NCBI GenBank assembly: GCA_038373885.1
Contig: JAWZYV010013563.1
Coordinates: 288,501-352,500, forward strand
Reading direction: 5' to 3'
From: Cheiracanthium punctorium
Lineage: Eukaryota; Arthropoda; Arachnida; Araneae; Cheiracanthiidae
DNA: 64,000 nucleotides
The translations under genes were made by a program, and so were the position numbers. This document shows, piece after piece, positions 6,001 to 52,027 of the stretch (the stretch's first letter is position 1; every line of letters begins with the position of its first letter). The notes under the pieces are model-generated. The model did not search any database, was not told the DNA's origin, and was given only the letters and a program-made list of their open reading frames with translations.

Positions 6001-7814
6001 TGTATTTGTATAAAATATGATTTTACAACAGTCTTAATTTATAAATCAGTAAAATGATGTTATAAAAATTTATTTCTGCAGGCGTCAACGTTCCTGGATT
6101 TTAATATCAGAAAATAAACATATTTATTTGAAATAAACTTACCAATAATACGATTGTTCGGAAAACGAAAAATCTTTTGAAGAATGAAGGCACTCTAGAT
6201 TATTCTTTCAACTAGAAATTCTCAAAGAAAAAAAGCGCAAAAATGAAATTAAAATAGCATGTATTATTATTATTATTATTAATAATGAAATATTTTATCA
6301 TTACAATACAGTGGTAGGTGAACTGGGAGCCTAAGTTAAAATACGCAACTATCAACTTTTTTTTCTGATCTTTTAATTAAAAGCGAATTAGTCGTACTTG
6401 TAAAAGTGAAAAATTCGAATATTATCCAATACATAGCATTTGCAATTACCAACAGGGAGTCCTAAATGCTCCATCAGTCTTTAATAAATTCCATTTATAA
6501 CATGGCAATACGTTATCAGATATCCCCTACTTAACTCGTCTTTGGTGGAAAGAAAAGAAATTGCCTGAAGGGGAGGGTGCGAAACGGTGAAAGGGAGGGA
6601 TAGTCATCATTCGTCTTGAGTAGCAACCAAAACGGAAAGGGGAGGGGGGGGTGTTTTCCACTTTTTTATTATGTTAGCGGAACGAACGAAGCAGAATGCA
6701 GAAAAGCATCTTGAATATGAGGGAAAATGGGCGACTGCACGGCAATTTAGCGTTGCACTTGTAAGGAGCAAAACAAAGCAATGAGCGCAAAGTGATATTA
6801 GTGAAATAATTACAGATTTTGTAAAAATATTTACGCTGCATGCTGAAAAAACATGCATACGACAGTATTTTTAGCGGAATAAAAATATATATGAAAATGT
6901 CAGTATTCAATTTGAAATATTAAGATATAGCATATAATGCACTTTTCGCGTAAGAGTGGTATGGTATAGTCGTTATTATTCGATATTTATGGAACAGAGT
7001 AAGGACTTTTTATTGAGTATCTGAGTTGTAAATTCAGTATGCATCTAGATTATGGTTAGTTCTAGTTAATTTTAGGTACTAGTTAATTTTATGAATATCT
7101 TTTTAACCCGTAAATGCCTAATGTATTATATAATAAAAATATTAGAATGTTATAATCTGCATGGTATTGGGGGGAGAATAAATAACTTCATTGGCAACCA
7201 AAAATAAAGAGAAATTCCAATTTAGAATATTACAAAACATGCATTTCCGATAACTCAACCACTGCACTGATATCACTAGAGTATTTATCTAATGGCAACG
7301 ATATGAGATAAACAAAAACAGGAAAAAATAAATAAAGGTATTTTATCAGCAGTAATTTACTTGCGAAAGGCCAACTTTTATAAATAAGAAAATCGGATTT
7401 ACAAATTTTCCCAAATACATAGTTTTTGATGATTCAAATCATTTCTAATTTTAAGATGAAATACAACTAATTGCAATAATAGCTGTTCTTTTAAAAGACA
7501 TAAGATAAATCTTTCGAAGTGAAGATAAAATGAAAATTCGCTCGCTATCTTGCTTATCACATTTTTAAACTCTTGTTTTCTCTTTTAAACCTTTTATCTA
7601 TGCAACTTTACGTTCGTTAAACATTTAAGTTCAAGATACTGCTTTCTAATAGTGCTGCCAATGTTATTTTTCATGAACTATTTTAAAATACGATGTGAAC
7701 AATTAGAAAATTTTCCTGGCGTTAATATCGCACAAAAATAGTGTATAAGGCGAATTTTTAAATTGAAATAAATAAATAAATAAGTTATCCCAAAAATTTT
7801 ACGCTTGCGACACG

Positions 7815-10938: not shown

Positions 10939-12710
10939 GAAAAGTCAATGGAAAGAGCCACGAACTCCGTAAATATCTTGTGGCAACCCTTTAAACTTAA
11001 AAAGACAACAAGAAGGAAACTACTCAACACGGCCGTAACAGCGTATTACAATGCTATGATACACAATCGCTCAATAATGCAGAGCAGAATAATCAATATT
11101 GCAGCGAATATAAATATACGCCGGGCGAAATTTCTAATATATTGCTCGAATCCACCTGAATCAGCGATATTGATTTTTTGATACTGTCCTACCTCTTGAA
11201 AAGCGCCATGATGAAGGAAATGTTGCGAAATGTATTTTTATCTCCTTGAAGGAGCGCTGAGCAGCATATGCTGAATAACATAACATACTCATGTCTGAGT
11301 TATTTCTACGAGGGGGAACTCGTTCGTAGCATCATTCTTTTTAACAATGACAAGATAAAAAAGAAATGCTTAACAAAATGTTAAAATATCTCTTGCGCTC
11401 CAGCTGCACACGGTGAAAACCTAAACAAAATAATTGAGCGACAATACAAATTATGCGTTATCGGGATTGCAATTCATGAATTCTCTTTTTTATGTTTTCC
11501 GCAGAGCACAATTATTGCTTTCTATTGATAAAAATTGAGTTATTCTTACGGTATTTTACTAACATATAATAATTCCTTTATGCGCAGTTTTTCCGGCTGT
11601 AAAGAAATAAAATTCTGTTTATTTTTCAGTAGCAACGATGCACTTCCTACTTCAATACAAAGAAACTTAATTTTCTTATTGTTTCTAATAAAGAAAATTT
11701 ATTTTGCACAAAAAAAAAAAAAAAATTAATAGTAAAAAAATATCCTTTTACTTTTTTGATATTTTTTAAAGTTATCAATTGTTACTAAAATTAATATCAT
11801 ATTTAAATCATTATTACTGACACTTGACGGGGAAAGGACATTACACTGAAAATAGTTGCGATTTAAGGGTTAAATAAAAATTGATGCAAAAATAGGGAGA
11901 AAAAAAAAGTTTTACTTAAAAATTTTACAAAAAAGTGCACATTAACTTGTTTTTCAGTTAAAATACCAAAATTAAAACATAAATATATAGTAAATCCTTT
12001 TATAAAATAATTTAGACAAATTAAAACACAAAGTATTTATGGTAAATTAAAGAACATTTTAAACTCAAAAGTAAATAAGTGTCTTTGATTTTATGAAATT
12101 TAAAATGTTTTAAATAAATTAAATTTATATGAATCAGTAACTCAAATTCCACAAACAATAATAATTAATTAAATTTACCTATAATACATAAATTTTAAAT
12201 ATTTATTTTACAATAGCAAATTTGTTTTAAATAGATTAAATTTATATGAAATCAGTAACTCAAATATTGCGAACAATGATAATTAATTAAATTTTTCTAT
12301 AATAAATTTTAGAAATATAAAGAAACATTAACATAATTATAAGAAGAAATTTCGGAGTGATTAATTCATACTTAATTTACAATGTTAAACAAGGATTATT
12401 TCTTAATTTAAATATAAGTCATATTTTAGGATCTTTTTTAATCCAGAAACAAATTTAAGAATATTTTTCTTCCAAGCGACTAATCGATGAAACATTTACA
12501 AGTTTCAATATACATAAGTAAAAATAAATGCTTCTTTTCTTTAAATGATAAATCGAAGTTGCTTAAATCTTGCCAATCCTACTGTTTTCAATATATGTAG
12601 CATATGCACTGCACGTGCACAAAAACATGCAAAGTAATTTCTCAAATGCAACTGTCGCACACACAAAGCACTTAAACGGAAATCGCAGAGTGCGCTAATT
12701 GAAATAAATT

Positions 12711-12716
12711 ACTCAC
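12711..12716 (-). other. splice donor GTGAGT of ARID5B-like exon
   Basis: Read on the minus strand, the exon ends CAC CAC GGA GAG and continues gtgagt, a consensus 5' splice site (GAG|GTGAGT). It falls exactly after the conserved HHGE residues, where similarity to the ARID5B family stops, and leaves the frame in phase 0. The open frame continues past it only into a short non-conserved tail. Confidence 0.85.
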
Positions 12717-12989
12717 CTCTCCGTGGTGGGACAGCCTCCCTTCAGGCGTCTGCTCCGGAAGAAAGTACAACCTGAGGGCTGACAACTGTTGTTCATTATT
12801 CCTGTTAGAGCACAGTAACTGCAATTCACCAATGCAAGGATCCACCTCCGCGGAAATCCGCACGAAGAAAAACTCTCCCAAATTCAGATCCTTCGATATT
12901 CCATCTTTAGTAGTATAACGAAATCCACGGTAGAAAGTAAACGTTCCGTGGTGACCGCACGGGGAACCTGTGAACTGAGAAAGCCGCAT
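12717..12989 (-). CDS. ARID5B: ARID5B-like protein, first coding exon (partial gene)
   Basis: This exon encodes 91 residues that closely follow the N-terminal BAH-like region of vertebrate ARID5B, a DNA-binding subunit that recruits histone demethylase activity (PHF2) to chromatin in the nucleus. Matching blocks in order are GSPCGHHGTFTFYRGF (residues 8-23), NLGEFFFVR (36-44), IGELQLL (53-59), LYFLPEQTPEGR (74-85) and HHGE (88-91). The family match is from memory of the human protein. The ARID DNA-binding domain itself must lie in later exons outside the window. I chose the ATG at 12,989 because the frame upstream has no other ATG before a TAG at 13,016 and because it places GSPCG near the N-terminus, as in ARID5B. 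The exon ends in phase 0 at a GTGAGT donor at 12,716. An upstream coding exon is not excluded. ARID5A, which I recall as lacking this N-terminal block, is a worse fit. Confidence 0.85.
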
Positions 12990-13110
12990 TTGAAATTCGC
13001 TGCCATACACATGCTACAAAGTCCAGCACTCGACTGAAGCGATCAGAGAAAAGGAACAACGTTAGCCAGCTTCAACACACCCCCCCCTCCCTCCCTCCCG
13101 CAATTCCTCT
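12990..13110 (-). promoter_or_regulatory. 5' leader and core promoter of ARID5B-like gene
   Basis: Upstream of the ATG, in minus-strand sense, TCAGTCG occurs with its A at 13,035. It matches the arthropod initiator (TCAGT) and would give a 46-nt leader. A G-T-A-T-G at +28 to +32 matches four of five positions of the downstream promoter element. No TATA box is obvious at -30. A homopurine tract lies at 13,078-13,100 (CCCCCCCTCCCTCCCTCCC on the plus strand). An alternative reading is that the pyrimidine-rich run ending in CAG just before 13,035 is a splice acceptor and the leader has an upstream exon; the sequence alone does not decide. Confidence 0.4.
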
Positions 13111-21029: not shown

Positions 21030-21370
21030 AGTGCACTTTTTCTTTAGGAACGTTTTTCAATCACTGAGCGGAGGGAAATATTCGGAGCGATTTTCGCTCC
21101 TTTTTGATTAAATAATTTCGCTCCTTTTTCATTACTTTTTAACATTAAAAGGAGCGTTTTATAGGAAACACTCCTTTTAGAGCAATAATGTAAGGTATGA
21201 TTTCGTCCTTTTCCTGATTAATTTTTAATCTCAGAAAGAGCATTTTGAAGGGAACGCTCTTTTTTGAGCAATGTTTAAAAAGTGATTTCGCTCCTTTTTT
21301 TATTAAATCTTTAATCTCAAACAAGCTATTTTCTTAAAAACACTTTTATTTTTCTTCTGTTTTATTTTAT
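21030..21370. repeat. 85-bp degenerate minisatellite with internal dyads
   Basis: Units begin atttcg(c)tcctttt at 21,115, 21,200 and 21,285, exactly 85 bp apart, with a more diverged unit or flank to the left from about 21,000. Each unit carries GGAGCG/CGCTCC-type or AGAGC/GCTCT-type inverted pairs, so each could fold. The spacing and the divergence between units point to an old tandem array. No open frame runs through it. Confidence 0.75.
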
Positions 21371-22227: not shown

Positions 22228-24660
22228 AAAAAACCAAAATTTAATACTTGTGACTCCAACAAATGCAAAACTTGTCCCTACGCTTCTTCTGATTTAATAG
22301 ATAATAGTAGATCTTACTATCAATTCTGTAAAATATATAATTGCATTTATAAAATTAATTGTACCTCTTGTAATATGGCCTATATAGGTCAAACACGTAA
22401 TCCGCTACACCTGCGAATTAATTTACATCGCAGTAATGTAAAAAAATTTTTCATCTGATCATTCGGCAAATGTTGAATATGCTCATTTCCATACCCATGG
22501 GTTTGAAAACATTAAAATAGAAATACTTGCCATCCAACAACAACATAACGAACGACTTTTTCTGGAAGATCATTTAATAAATGATCACAACACCTGTTAT
22601 CCTTACGGACTCAACCAAATATTACATAATAAACATCTTCATTACTACTCCGAAAACACTAACCCTACAAAATATATGCCTATTTATTACAAACTTAATC
22701 TGAATAGATACAAGAAAACTTCTCGTTTCAAGAGAGGCAAGTCCTCAAAACATATTCATTTTATTTTATCAAACAGTGCCATAAAGTCTGAACTTCAACT
22801 TCTAAATGATACCTACATAAATAATTTTAACTGGATACCTGTAAGAACCTTTGTCTTCTCTATTAAAAAGAAGTTGATTCACAAATATCTCAAAATCTTC
22901 TACACTTTGACTCTGTCTGATCACTTTAGTCATTTGTTTTATGATCTTATGATTGTCCGAGCAAATGCACTTAAACATGACATAGTAAAAAACAACTACA
23001 AACAGTCTACATTAAATACTAACTTTGTCATACATTATACACATCCTTCTTTTCGATCAATAAACTTTAATCAACTTCTTTCTAAACACAGTGACTTATT
23101 TCCAATTAATGACCTGCACATAAAAAAATCCTTTAAATATCCTATACCCATGGGTAGAAAAATATTCAACTACAATTCTTTTTGTAAGAATTTTTCACCG
23201 GATGATTCCTTTGATTGTTTATGTACCAGTGATCATTATCGTTCATTTGTTAATTCCCATTATGGACACATAGTTACAGGTGACCTTAATATAATAAAAG
23301 ATTTAAAACTAAGACAACTTATGAACAAAGGCACTAAGTATAGACTACCATCTAAATATAATATAAATGATATTATTGCACAGTTTACCTATGATATTGA
23401 CTATTATATATATAACACTTCTCTAAAATTCAATATTCCTACTGCCTTTTTTGATATGTGGAAAATTAAAGTATTGTCTTCATTAAATAATATATTAGCT
23501 AAATCTTTTGCATCTCCAAAAAAACTATATCTATCTGATCAGATTAACTATTTGCAGCAATACTTTGTTATTACTTATGTTGATAAATCGTTTAATAACT
23601 ATGCAATTATTTGTAAAAAATTATATCATAGTCTATTATCTAATTCAATTAACAACAATTCTAACTTTAAACTCACTAATACCACTGAGTCCATATTTAA
23701 TAAAAAGATACTAGCCTACCATAAGCTACTTAACCTGAAACATGATAATCTTAATTATCCTTACTTAGTATTAATCCCTAAATTTCACAAAACTCCAATT
23801 AAGTTTAGAACTGTAACTATTGGATGTAATACTTACAATAATATAGCTAGTAAATCATTACTAAAAATACTAACTTCCCTACATAATTTATATATTAAGG
23901 CTAATTGCAATTCCATATCAATTAGTAATAGTTATGAGCTAAAAAACAAAATTAAAGATTTACATTCTATATCTTCCATATCTACTTATGACTTTAAAGA
24001 TCTATTTAATAACATACATTTAGATGATCTCTACAATACTATACTAGATCTTTTTAACAATAGCATAAATAGTCTAAATCTACCATCGCAATATTCTATT
24101 ACTTATATCAAAAATCTACTTAGGTTTATATTATACAATAACTATATTCTACTCTACACAATAATAAACTATACAAACAGGTCTTAGGTTTACCACAAGG
24201 TGGATCTACTTCAAGTTATTTAGCTGATCTTTATCTATTTAATTATGAGAAACACTATGATAACTCCTCACTTATAATATATAGGTACATAGACGATATT
24301 ATTGTTATAGCTACAGATAACTATATACACACAGATAAATTGCCTATTACCTATCCTGATAATTTAGAATTAATTAAAAATCCTCTAACTAATAACTGTA
24401 CTAATTTTCTTGATTTACAACTAATAATAAATAAGGACAAGAAACTCATATTTAACATATATAATAAAAGAGATGATTTTCCTTTCAATGTAATTAGTTT
24501 CACAGATTTTACCTCATGTATGCATATATCTGTATTTAGAAATATCATAGCTAATCATCTATATAGAGTACTGTCTCTTTGTACAAGTAATTATAAGTCT
24601 GAAAATATATCTTCACTGTATCATATTGCTTTAAGATACAATTACCCTAAAAATTTTTAA
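22228..24660 (+). pseudogene. Naiad-type Penelope-like element ORF (GIY-YIG nuclease + reverse transcriptase), two frameshifts
   Basis: Three reading-frame segments join into one roughly 800-codon protein. Segment one (about 22,228-22,449) holds a Cys-rich lead-in (CDSNKCKTCPYAS) and the GIY-YIG motif as CIY at 22,342 and YIG at 22,381. Segment two (about 22,450-24,170) completes the nuclease (FLEDH...YGLN), then has a linker with the CxC motif CLC at 23,216-23,224 followed by GHIVTGDLNI, then reverse transcriptase motifs ending with motif A (YDFKDLF; catalytic Asp codon at 23,990). Segment three (about 24,171-24,660) has motif B (GLPQGGS at 24,187-24,207) and motif C (YIDD at 24,286-24,297). 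Nuclease before RT, linked by a CxC domain, is the layout described for Naiad/Chlamys elements; canonical Penelope elements have the nuclease C-terminal. Breaks: one extra base in the A/T run at 22,438-22,451; a two-base gain or one-base loss near 24,140-24,170; no start codon; a stop at 22,225; and a stop shortly after YNYPKNF. The copy is therefore dead as it stands. Confidence 0.85.
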
Positions 24661-25357
24661 ATTCGATTCTATTTCCTAGTTGCAATTAGCATTAATATAA
24701 ACATGTGTCCTTTCTGGGAATTCTTGGTTGGAGAGGTTGGGGTTTGGTAGCTGGCTTGCTTATAAAATTTATTAAAAAAAAAAAACTATAAAATTCTGGC
24801 TTTTTAGTACATGTTTTATTGAAGGGAAAAAAAATGTACAAATGAACTAATGATCACAGGTATCATCTAAATATAAAAGCTCTTCTTTTAATTAGTATAA
24901 TCTCAGAAATATCTCTAGGCATATAATAGACAGCTATTTAAGCAGTTAGATGTAATCCTTTAAAATATCATAACCTAATATATATTATGCCAATATTTCT
25001 TCTTAATTAATAATTTTTTAATTTATTTTTTTTTAAACTTAATTTACTGTATTCTTATTATTATTTTTTTTTTACTAACTCTTACTTTTTACTTATTGTT
25101 CAACTTTTCTCCAATTTTTTCTGGCAACGTATAATTTTCCAGCTTCAATTGGCAACAGCTCCATGGTTGCGCCATGTTTTCAGGCTTAATGCTTCGGTTG
25201 CTACTTCTCCATTTTCTCTTCATAATTACATTTTTTCTGGGTATGTCTTTACTATTACTTTTTACTTCATAACAGGATAGCCCCCTGCTAGTTACATATT
25301 TAGCTTTCTTTGTGCTAAGTAACTGCATTGAAATCCTGTTATTTCGTTTTTTATCTT

Positions 25358-25411
25358 GGTAGCAAGTATTCGGTTCGTGGGGCCTGAAGATTTTAGCCGA
25401 TGCTTGCTACC
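25358..25411 (+). repeat. stable hairpin in the Naiad 3' region
   Basis: The arms ggtagcaagtattcgg (25,358-25,373) and ccgatgcttgctacc (25,397-25,411) pair with a nine-base perfect end and one bulge, around a 23-base loop. It lies between the RT stop and the terminal microsatellite. The loop includes CCTGAAGA, reminiscent of the CUGANGA box of hammerhead ribozymes, but the GAAA box is missing. It may be a 3' recognition hairpin for the element's own reverse transcriptase; that is inference. Confidence 0.6.
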
Positions 25412-25612
25412 TATTGTTTTACTCCATCCAATTCCGTCTTCTTTTTCTGATTTACCAATGTTTGGATTTCAATCTGCTGCTTTTGTCTGCTTATTCCTAT
25501 CTTTACTTAAGATTTTGAGTTCATTATTTTGCTCAACAATCATTCCATGGATATTTAGAATTTTGTATTTACCAAGTGGATGCTACGTTGATTCGTAAGT
25601 TATGCTTTTTAC

Positions 25613-25616
25613 TATA

Positions 25617-25656
<40 letters not shown>
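25613..25656. repeat. (TA)n microsatellite followed by poly-T
   Basis: About 13 TA dinucleotides are followed by 17 or so T residues. It is the likely right border of the Naiad insertion. Confidence 0.85.
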
Positions 25657-41923: not shown

Positions 41924-42088
41924 CAGTGGCGTAGCCAGAAATTTTTCATGGGGGGGGTTACGGCTTCTGCAACTCACATATATGTATACGGGTGTATGAT
42001 AAGGGAGTGAAGAATATACATTTTGTATGGCAAAAAATTCCTCATGGGGGGTATGACCCCCCTAACCCCCCCCTTGGCTACGCCACTG
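41924..42088. mobile_element. nested hAT-type MITE, CAGTGGCGTAGCC family, copy 2
   Basis: A 165-bp element starts CAGTGGCGTAGCCAG and ends TTGGCTACGCCACTG. The perfect 8-bp duplication acgtgaat is at 41,916-41,923 and 42,089-42,096. It sits inside the composite element. Confidence 0.9.
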
Positions 42089-42162
42089 ACGTGAATATAT
42101 GTGGTTGTGGGGCCCAGCCCCCCCCCCAATAATTTTGAAAACTTTACGCTTATGTGGTTATC

Positions 42163-45100
42163 TTGAATAATTTTTATGCAAGAAGATAAACAAGAATTTC
42201 CCGAATGAAAAGCCATTGATTTTTTGATTATACAATTAGCAAATTTTGGTGCATACTTGCGTGAATATATTTTTAATAACTTGGTTTTATGCAATATTGT
42301 ACAATATACATTTTAAAAATTGCAAATCAACATTTAATTTTTTACACCTATTTTTTAACGAATTTGATCTTCCAAGTTAAGCTTTTTATTAAAAAAGCTT
42401 TCATTTAACTTTTAAAATACACAATACTTTTTTTTTTTTAAACTCAGACCATCACGCTAAGACACAATGCCCCTCTCTACAACGTTGTGCATAAAGGGTC
42501 ACTGTTCCTTTAACTTACACCAACTTCAGCTTAAAAATTTACGAGGTTCCAGTATCGACTTTCTAAAATGTGAAAACGCAAAGCGAAAGACAGCTTATTG
42601 TCATTCCAGTTACGGGAAGGTGTGATTTCAGACGAGGTCATTCACAAAGAAACCACTCGCTCCTTTTAGGGCGCAGGCTTATCTGGCGCTCAAGATCACT
42701 AAAAAAAAAACTTGTAAGGATCGAATCAACGCGATTTACCAATTAAAAAACGGGACCGAATTACATTGCTCGGAGAATCGCTCTTGCACATCATTGTCAA
42801 CCGTAAAACAATGAGGGGAAACACTGTAACGTCTTCCCGTTTCTTTTATCATCCGAAAAGGGACCCATCGGTGATACAGCGAAACAAGATTCCACACGCG
42901 ATATGTTCGGTTCCGTATAGTTCCAGGCAATCGTTTTAGCAACGATGTGTAAGGTCAACTGTCATGAATTTCTAGCTTCGGGCGGACACTTAATTCTGGA
43001 AACCGATCGAGAGAAACAAAAAAGAAATCTGGTGTATCGGGGTGTTTGATGAGAGTACCAATTCACTTGCAGTGAAATGCGTGACTTGCAAACTCGATTG
43101 ACGAAGAAAGCTCGAAAGAGATTCATAGATTTTATTTGTCTTAGCAAGACGGTTAAGACGATAAGTACACTGTAAGTCAGCGATAAATCTAAAATTTTTT
43201 ATGCAAATGGATTTCAGGGTAAAAAAGTTTTATTTATTTTTTGTTTATTTCTTAACAGTAGCAGTGATAGTGCTTTGGGTATTCTAGAGGGGGGGGGGAG
43301 CGCATTAGAGAGCATTTTATTGAAATTTCCAATACATACATATATCCACTATCATTTAAAAAGGAATCTTATAATGGCGCCTGCCATGCCATCCATGCTA
43401 TAACAAACACGTACAATCCTTTTATATATTTTAGTGTTTGTTTTGAATATCTTATAATTATGAAAATTGTGGAGCCGAAAAACTTTTAACCCCCTCGTCA
43501 CCCTGAACCTCATATGAGGCTCCTATTTCAAATAGCAATATTTAGAGAGAAAACAGTTGAATTTAGTATTTTTTTCTTTCAGTGATATCAATATCATTAA
43601 TTCACGTAGAAAGTATATGAGGCTCTTAACTAGATGCATAAATCGTGCCTAGATTGCAGTACTAGTCAATTTAGATCATTTTTTACAGTTTTCGCTTCAT
43701 TGTTTCAGGAGAAAAATTAAGAAAATATTTAAGCTGCTTTTTTACCGTTTTTTTTTCTTTTTAAGGTAAGTATAGTTTTTTTTTTCTTATTCCTCAACCT
43801 TTACCTAATATGTGCATCCTTTTAAATTAATTTTAGCATAACAAAATGCTTCGAAAATGCAGAAATTATTATTAGAAAAATTATTATTATCGACATTAAT
43901 CGACAAATATTAATCTACATTAGAAAAAAATATTTTTGCATGATTTATAATAGTATTCAGATGCATTAAATGCTAGACAGATTTGTTTTCTCTGATTTTT
44001 CATAATTCGGTGACGTGAGGGTTAAAGTATGGGTCCATAGATATTAAAATCAAATTCTAGCTCATTTATTTATTTATTTAGGTTCGATGTACCAAGATTG
44101 TGTTATCTACACCTGAACGTTATGTTTGCGGTTTGTTATATACTTGCGGTATTAAACCGGTGTAAATGGTTTCACTAACCAATTTGTCTATGCTAATTGT
44201 AGCCGTAATAAGGTTGATGTCACATTCATTTGTTCGAAAATAACTAAGCATTAAAGTGCTACACATCCGTAAATATATTGAATAAATGAAAACTAAGAAA
44301 ATATGAAGACCTGAAATAGGCAGCACTCTTTTCGGGACCCTAGCAGTTTTCAAACAGAAGTAATAACAACATTTTAAATCTGCATAAGTACATCACGTCC
44401 GATTTAAAATTAGTAACACGCATTTAAAAATATATACAATGCACATGCACTTAATTGCATTGTAAGATTTTCAAAACTCCGAAAATCGGAAACTTGCAGT
44501 TTCCTCAAAAAAGGGGCCAACTGTCAGACTTGTTTCACTCGAAGAGGTATGTTTCAATATTATGGCCAACGTCACGTTCCCCAGAAAAGTATCCAACTTA
44601 GAGAGATGGCCAAGTTATGGAGCCGTTCAAATTGGGAGATTCCCACGGTAGAAAAATTTTACTCTAATGATGGCCGAGTACTTTTTATTAAGAACAACAG
44701 CAACAAATTATTACATAAATAAAGTTTTTAATAAGCCTCGAATCATTTAATGCTGTATTTGTACAAAGAGAAGCTGTTTTTTCTCCAAACTCTTAAGAAA
44801 TCTAAGCAAGCATAACTAAAAATTCCATTGAATTTCTGTGAAGAAGTCTGGTAATTGGTGAAAATTAGCGAAAAATAACTCCAGAAGGGACCATTTTGGG
44901 TATTATTTATTTAAAGACAAGCTTCTCGCACAATATATTTATTATTTTCAAAATATTCTTATACGTTATGGATAAGTAATAAAAGATTAAAAATCAGCTA
45001 AATGTGCATCCATCACGATTTATGCTTATAACAGTTTACCAAGGGAGAATAATCAGCCAAATATCTCAATTTTAATAACTTCAATAAACGCCTAATGCCA

Positions 45101-50341: not shown

Positions 50342-51655
50342 AGAGTTTTCTCCGTCAATTTTCTTCAATGATGAGAGCAAACCGGTTAAGCGTTAAAAAT
50401 TAACAGGTAAAAAGAGATAAAAAAAGAGTGACCCATGTTTGACTATGTGCTTTGGTAAACTTATTGACCCTTCTTTCAAAACTTTCTGAATATGCCCCAA
50501 AATTTACCTATTGAAAATGGTGCATACTATAGCATGAATAATACTAAACTACAGAACGCATTACTAAATAAAAATTAAGTCTTGTTAAAATAATTTAAAA
50601 CTTCAATACTAGACATTTGCAAAGGGATTATAATATTCAACATAAACCTTATTTAAGGCACATTATAAACTTAAAGAGTAAAGTTTAACTCCCTCTAACT
50701 CCCTATCAGCACTTTAACACATTGTATATGTATTTTTTCTCTGATAAAAAAGAAAAAATATATAAAAATTGAAACTAGTTGATAACAGAAAAGATACAGT
50801 AACTGACTTAAGCGGGATTTTTAAAGCAAATAATGCGTCAAGATAACGCTTGCATAATCTATAACAGGAGGGAAAAAAAAAAAAAAAATTCCACAATCTT
50901 CTTTATTATGAAAATGGTGAAATAATGAACATAGATAATAAATAATCTTTTCCCTCCCTTGTTTTGTTTTGTTGTTGTTGTTTAAGAATGTTTATATTAA
51001 TTTGTTTTAAGAAATGACAGTGAATTTTATTATTAATTCTATGTCATTAAAAAATAAACCGTTAAAAAAGAACGGACTTCTCCCTCCCCGCAATCCTCTT
51101 CAGCGACAACTCAGTGTAATCAGGGCACTTTTATAAAAAAGCATTTTTGAATTTGTTTGATCTGAAAGTCAACTAATTTCAACAATTGCATTGTAAAAAT
51201 TTTGTATGTCAAATGCTTTAGATTGTCGTGCTAGAAACATTTCCACAGGAAATTTGCCTATAATTTGGTTTGCCTATTGATTGTAGGGAAACTTATATAT
51301 TTTACTTATATGTACTATACTATGGTTTCCATAATAAATAGTGTAACTAGTATTTTAAAACTTAAAAAAAATTATTTACCGAGAAAAATTTTTCGAAAAT
51401 TTTTGGAAATCTGAATTTTTTGGGGGGAACTTCCAATTCTCATAAACAGTTATTACTTTGCGATTTTATATCGACGACGCCCAAAAATTGCAAAATTATT
51501 ATGTTAAATCCGAAATTGAAATAACTTTTAAAAATTTCTTTACTACTATAATGGATTTTTTGGAGTTTACCACCCCCATAAATAATTACTTGCATAAGCG
51601 TAAAGTTTTCAAAATTATTGGGGGGGCTGGGCCCCACAACCACATATATTCACGT

Positions 51656-51824
51656 CAGTGGCGTAGCCAAGGGGTGGGTTAGGGGGGTCATAACCCCCCC
51701 CCATGAGGAATTTTTTGCCATACAAAATGTATATTCTTCACTCCCTTATACACCCGTATACATATATGTGAGTTGCAGAAGTCGTAACCCTCCCCCCCAT
51801 GAAAAATTTCTGACTACGCCACTG
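51656..51824. mobile_element. nested hAT-type MITE, CAGTGGCGTAGCC family, copy 3
   Basis: A 169-bp element starts CAGTGGCGTAGCCAAGG and ends CTGACTACGCCACTG. The duplication attcacgt/attcatgt (one difference) is the inverse of acgtgaat around copy 2, so this is the same ancestral insertion carried along. Confidence 0.9.
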
Positions 51825-51845
51825 ATTCATGTACATATAACTTAC

Positions 51846-52027
51846 TCAAAGCTGCCAACTACTACGGAATATAATGAACCACTTTTCTACACAATTTTTC
51901 GGCTTAAAATAGAGCAAAAGTTTTTTGCTGCGCGCACGAGCTGGTTACTATTTTGAAAAAAATAAGTAAAAAATAGACTGTTAACAAAAAGTGGTTAATT
52001 ATATTCCGCAGTAGTTGGCAGCTATGA
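51846..52027. mobile_element. nested palindromic MITE with 41-bp arms (copy 2)
   Basis: The arms at 51,846-51,886 and 51,987-52,027 mirror those of the 41.7-kb copy, and the length is the same 182 bp. The flanks are cttac and attac. Confidence 0.75.

Follow-up and report, generated by a model that had tools for sequence, protein, structure and literature searches.

Penelope-like elements (PLEs) in their canonical order carry a GIY-YIG nuclease behind the reverse transcriptase (RT), and a clade with the permuted order, Naiad/Chlamys, is already known, reportedly from work of Craig and colleagues in 2021. The Poseidon enzyme of Anolis, a canonical PLE, cleaves AT-rich DNA, and its reverse transcription begins within its own RNA, at a site that is not homologous to the cut DNA (PMC11167929). 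We analyzed a stretch of 64,000 nucleotides from the spider Cheiracanthium punctorium (contig JAWZYV010013563.1, positions 288,501 to 352,500), here called the window, which very probably holds a Naiad-type PLE in the form of a dead copy that lacks its 5' end and was inserted fairly recently. This copy is itself an ordinary, dead member of the permuted clade. New in this analysis is the observation that, in a sister family of the same genome, most of the copies with readable edges lie in (TA)n microsatellites. The parts worth following are the TA-run junctions of these copies and a putative zinc site in the linker between nuclease and RT.

The window copy and its relatives in the genome

A sequence-only reading had proposed a Naiad copy at 22228..24660, with all catalytic residues retained and two frameshifts. 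The motifs that it listed (CIY, YIG, CLC, GHIVTG and RT motifs A, B and C) are all present in that order, close to where it had placed them, and the catalytic residues are indeed kept. The window frame 22228-22458 encodes a Cys-rich knuckle and the CIY/YIG portion of the GIY-YIG nuclease. The frame 22442-24184 (581 codons) encodes the nuclease remainder, CLC (23216), GHIVTG (23264), a DK motif, PKFHK (23777) and motif A as YDFKD (23987), and the frame 24142-24660 supplies GLPQGGS (motif B), YIDD (motif C) and the thumb. The two frameshifts correspond to small length differences, one near 22446 and one at 24148-24152, which divide the copy into these three frames; neither was found in any of the five other copies aligned. 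On the + strand the features are as follows.

22237..25639 (+): 5'-truncated permuted (Naiad-type) Penelope-like element including the 3' (TA)n, delimited by homology start and end against other loci and by the printed flanks
22240..22446 (+): Cys-rich knuckle followed by the opening portion of the GIY-YIG nuclease, with CIY, YIG, R and H, in the first frame
22446 (+): first frame break, position approximate, from alignment with five other copies
22447..22624 (+): remainder of the GIY-YIG nuclease, up to and including Glu and YPYGLN, in the second frame; extent from comparison with L013 and L026 and from the I-TevI match to the P0002 model at 86-186
22892..23701 (+): linker domain from nuclease to RT, with a confident structure model (of 22745-23701) weakly resembling telomerase RNA-binding domains
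23216..23224 (+): CxC motif (CLC), both Cys in 53 of 53 rows of alignment A3
23267..23269 (+): His of GHIVTG, invariant (53 of 53 in A3) and putatively the third ligand of a zinc
23612..23614 (+): Cys of AIICK, invariant (53 of 53 in A3) and putatively the fourth ligand
23777..24657 (+): reverse transcriptase in two frames, with motif A at 23987, B at 24187 and C (YIDD) at 24286, and with the thumb after them
24148..24152 (+): second frame break, which falls after RT motif A and before motif B, from alignment with five other copies
24661..25612 (+): untranslated 3' stretch belonging to the element, by homology to L003, L026, L027 and L028
25613..25639 (+): (TA)n, 3' end of the element (target microsatellite side)

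The motif positions of the sequence-only reading stood, and its outer limits had to be revised. Homology starts at 22237-22240 in five of the seven other loci aligned to the window (at 22717 and 22875 in the remaining two), and the longest matches end at 25628 (L026) and 25632 (L028), with (TA)n from 25613. Given these match limits, the element extends about 970 bp further in the 3' direction and its 5' end is gone. The copy is a single truncated unit with (TA)n at its 3' end; inspection of the flank revealed no (TA)n at its 5' end. Some 1 kb upstream, at 21091-21299, the window also contains tandem and inverted repeats around TTTCGCTCCTTTTT. The element is not a product of chance, because an open frame of 581 codons is maintained at about 27% GC and further copies occur elsewhere in the genome. 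Pfam recovered RVT_1 in the window copy (E=1.2e-8) and GIY-YIG below its cut-off of 22.6 (E=0.0011, 19.6 bits), and in copy L026, whose protein is 98% identical, GIY-YIG slightly exceeded this cut-off (6.4e-5, 23.6 bits).

Copy scoring in this genome (2.53 Gb in 15,171 contigs) covered 75 of 4857 candidates. Eight of the 75 places, the window's included, are 82-100% identical to the 581-residue query and form the window subfamily. Within it, the window copy diverges by 1.6% from its nearest copy, L026, which is open across the compared stretch (747 codons), and by 7.0-7.8% from L003, L004, L006 and L008. As the sequence-only reading had suggested, these divergences point to a fairly recent insertion of the window copy. 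We also noted in L026 an interruption of about 1.5 kb (6142-7647), some 200 bp past RT motif C.

The other 67 places, which we label the sister family and of which a part was examined closely, show 62-65% identity to the window query (about 64% at the protein level for the family), most with open frames of at least 700 codons. An 884-codon open frame is present in 16 of the 17 sister loci fetched, L010 showing 817 codons. Over the 120 pairs of these 16, the median dS is 0.017, the median dN 0.0033 and the ratio of means 0.19, with 0 to 23 residue differences between the proteins of a pair. These dS, dN and dN/dS values suggest that the sister family is young and that its protein is constrained now, or was until lately. 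The intact sister protein of L013 has GIY-YIG at 96-181 and RVT_1 at 582-755 in Pfam, and the domain scan detected no C-terminal nuclease in it.

Clade placement, RT fold and linker

Searches with the middle piece of the window copy yielded 40 proteins, with further ones from a profile search. The canonical set comprises matches to P0064 as sole query (120 listed of 1134) and covers part of canonical PLE diversity; P0064 itself, a homologue of 835 residues, has its nuclease at 738-821, the canonical order. When a fixed pattern was applied, the nuclease lay in the N-terminal half of every permuted homologue that matched (36, of 62 examined) and in the C-terminal half of every canonical one that did so (93, of 120 examined), and none of those 36 had a nuclease motif in the C-terminal half. 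Likewise, a CxC..H pattern was detected in 42 of the 62 permuted and 0 of the 120 canonical homologues. In an RT tree of 86 rows (54 permuted, 30 canonical and two window pieces entered separately, with no named Naiad, Chlamys or TERT row), the permuted and canonical sets split at 100/100 on a long branch (1.94 as printed). Both window pieces fell on the permuted side, grouped with the sister protein (100/99), and an RT from Trichonephila clavipes (P0029) fell within the same subclade. These sequence comparisons support the window element as a permuted PLE that lies outside the canonical clade sampled. To this extent the proposed "Naiad copy" holds, while the name Naiad itself is one that we infer from architecture and from what is known of that clade. 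As a separate observation, the permuted PLE protein P0058, from a public contig, carries beyond its PLE part a ubiquitin carboxyl-terminal hydrolase domain (2.5e-27), as a fusion or an artefact of gene prediction.

The sequence-only reading had named two outcomes that would speak against it, and neither occurred: the RT was split from the sampled PLEs with C-terminal nucleases, and nuclease, linker and RT do not represent two separate insertions, because one open frame holds them in the sister copies. A canonical PLE (Penelope/Poseidon/Neptune), or chance adjacency of GIY-YIG and RT fragments from two insertions, is hence a very improbable account of the window locus. The RTs of both kinds of PLE are related, as hhalign of the permuted and canonical sets gave an alignment, over the RT region only, with a probability of 99.8 (E 2.7e-30). 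Nevertheless, the single 884-codon frame of the sister loci, the order of both domains in L013 (the one scanned), the 100/100 separation from the 30 canonical rows and the absence of a C-half nuclease motif from the 36 pattern-matching permuted homologues all argue for a permuted PLE.

A Foldseek comparison with the model of a close full-length homologue returned telomerases as its first 17 matches, most of them spanning about 350-870 of the model. Telomerase is therefore the nearest solved fold, the homologue model displaying a TERT-like RT and thumb, in agreement with the relationship to telomerase stated in the sequence-only reading. The linker model showed a weak resemblance to telomerase RNA-binding domains (TRBD), no more than a hint of a TRBD-like linker. 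The N-terminal nuclease claimed earlier is seen both in the window frames and in the intact sister protein, and the CxC linker in the window copy. The two Cys of CxC, the His of GHIVTG and the Cys of AIICK are each invariant in alignment A3 (53/53), and this invariance suggests a putative zinc site; that all of them bind one zinc in the linker is a reasonable possibility, which we rate slightly below probable.

Tandem junctions and (TA)n insertion sites

The sister unit is about 4.63 kb long (L014). An internal tandem junction was found in 12 of the 17 sister loci, corresponding to 10 of 15 distinct arrays, with the upstream copy partial or whole and usually 5'-truncated, which is how pseudo-long-terminal repeats (pseudo-LTRs) look in PLEs. 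The unit's TA run leads into CTATTCTG at the internal junctions and into (TA)n at the 13 outer 3' ends of the first sample that carry the 3' motif; the motif is absent from the outer ends of L016 and L020. In a second sample of 20 copies, 18 had the motif with a TA-rich tract behind it, that of L047 being short. On the 5' side, a TA tract of at least 9 bases lies within 45 bp at 16 of 20 visible sister junctions, and one of at least 12 bases at 12 of 20. Fifteen of these junctions came from the first sample and five from the second, the rest of which gave no hit (10) or ran on (5). The background of tracts of at least 9 bases is 342 of 63,955 positions in the window and 1321 of 41,004 in the outer flanks (0.5-3.2%). 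Furthermore, in L027, L022 and L043 two related elements stand tail to tail within one (TA)n tract.

Such features also bear on whether we are dealing with an RT gene that is cellular or has been domesticated, for instance one of rvt type, and not a mobile element. Purifying selection, with dN/dS of 0.19, is what such a gene would show, but the 75 scored places across many contigs, the tandem and truncated copies, the TA-flanked insertions and the broken copies, including the window's, render this explanation scarcely credible.

The TA tracts flanking the copies and the 3' ends at the unit's internal TA run together suggest annealing of template and primer at the target. In this scheme the protein would cut a (TA)n microsatellite, and the freed TA end, acting like a telomere end in telomerase, would anneal to a TA run that lies within an RNA of several units. 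Reverse transcription would then begin at the annealed run, inside the RNA, and would often halt early, leaving a truncated upstream unit. We regard the scheme as a whole as evenly balanced between right and wrong. Its main rival is that TA is a by-product, with insertion at any AT-rich site making a short TA duplication that later grows by slippage. This rival draws on the AT-rich composition of the window and the fast mutation of TA tracts, and on the preference of PLE nucleases for AT-rich DNA (PMC11167929). It accords poorly with TA tracts that are long at the 5' junctions too (12 of 20 at 12 bases or more), with the tail-to-tail pairs in one tract at three loci, and with the shared end point of those copies that have the 3' motif (13 outer ends; 18 of 20), all of which stop at one TA run of the unit, and we consider it rather unlikely. 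Beyond the annealing scheme, it is a tentative and rather unlikely idea that the sister family, and so the window copy's kind, uses (TA)n as telomerase uses telomere ends, that the TRBD has a counterpart, diverged and zinc-bearing, in the CxC linker, and that linker, RT and thumb form a mobile telomerase core behind a nuclease.

The same genome thus offers a young, constrained family with open frames, clean tandem junctions and a definable target. Two questions could be tested on one natural enzyme: whether a target is chosen by pairing of RNA with a DNA repeat, as in telomerase, and whether PLEs and telomerase have an RNA-binding domain in common besides the RT.

Elsewhere in the window, a 113-codon open frame at 12675-13013 (-) reads like a conserved host exon, perhaps an ARID5-like one; Pfam gave nothing for it at E<=1, and its best PDB hit (E 0.71) was not convincing. 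The translations of 41977-42312 (-) and 51582-51953 (+) have in common the stretch SVKFSKLLGG..LGPTTTYIHVSGVAKG, seemingly as copies of one repeat, and had no Pfam match.

Comparison with known systems

The window kind is like Naiad/Chlamys in its N-terminal GIY-YIG nuclease, CxC linker, telomerase-like RT, lack of a C-terminal nuclease and many copies in a large genome. It differs in that the window copy is broken and 5'-truncated and in that the sister copies favour (TA)n, where Chlamys reportedly favours (CA)n. In comparison with the GIY-YIG domain of I-TevI, the nuclease here has a Cys-rich knuckle in front of it and is linked to an RT.

Poseidon of Anolis (PMC11167929) likewise combines GIY-YIG with a telomerase-like RT; it too forms pseudo-LTRs in tandem units, inserts at AT-rich targets and starts reverse transcription within the RNA. 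In contrast, its nuclease is C-terminal, it has a hammerhead ribozyme, and its start site is not homologous to the cut DNA, whereas the start site here looks homologous, the TA run matching the target. No hammerhead ribozyme, a feature of many but not all PLEs, was detected in L013, L014, L026 and L009 at E<=1, nor in the window at gathering score.

With regard to telomerase, the loci examined contain no exact TTAGG or TTAGGG arrays, and the window kind differs from TERT in having a nuclease and in moving its own RNA. The likeness lies in the fold, TERT being the nearest solved one, and a TA-run template matched to the end of repeat DNA would itself be telomerase-like.
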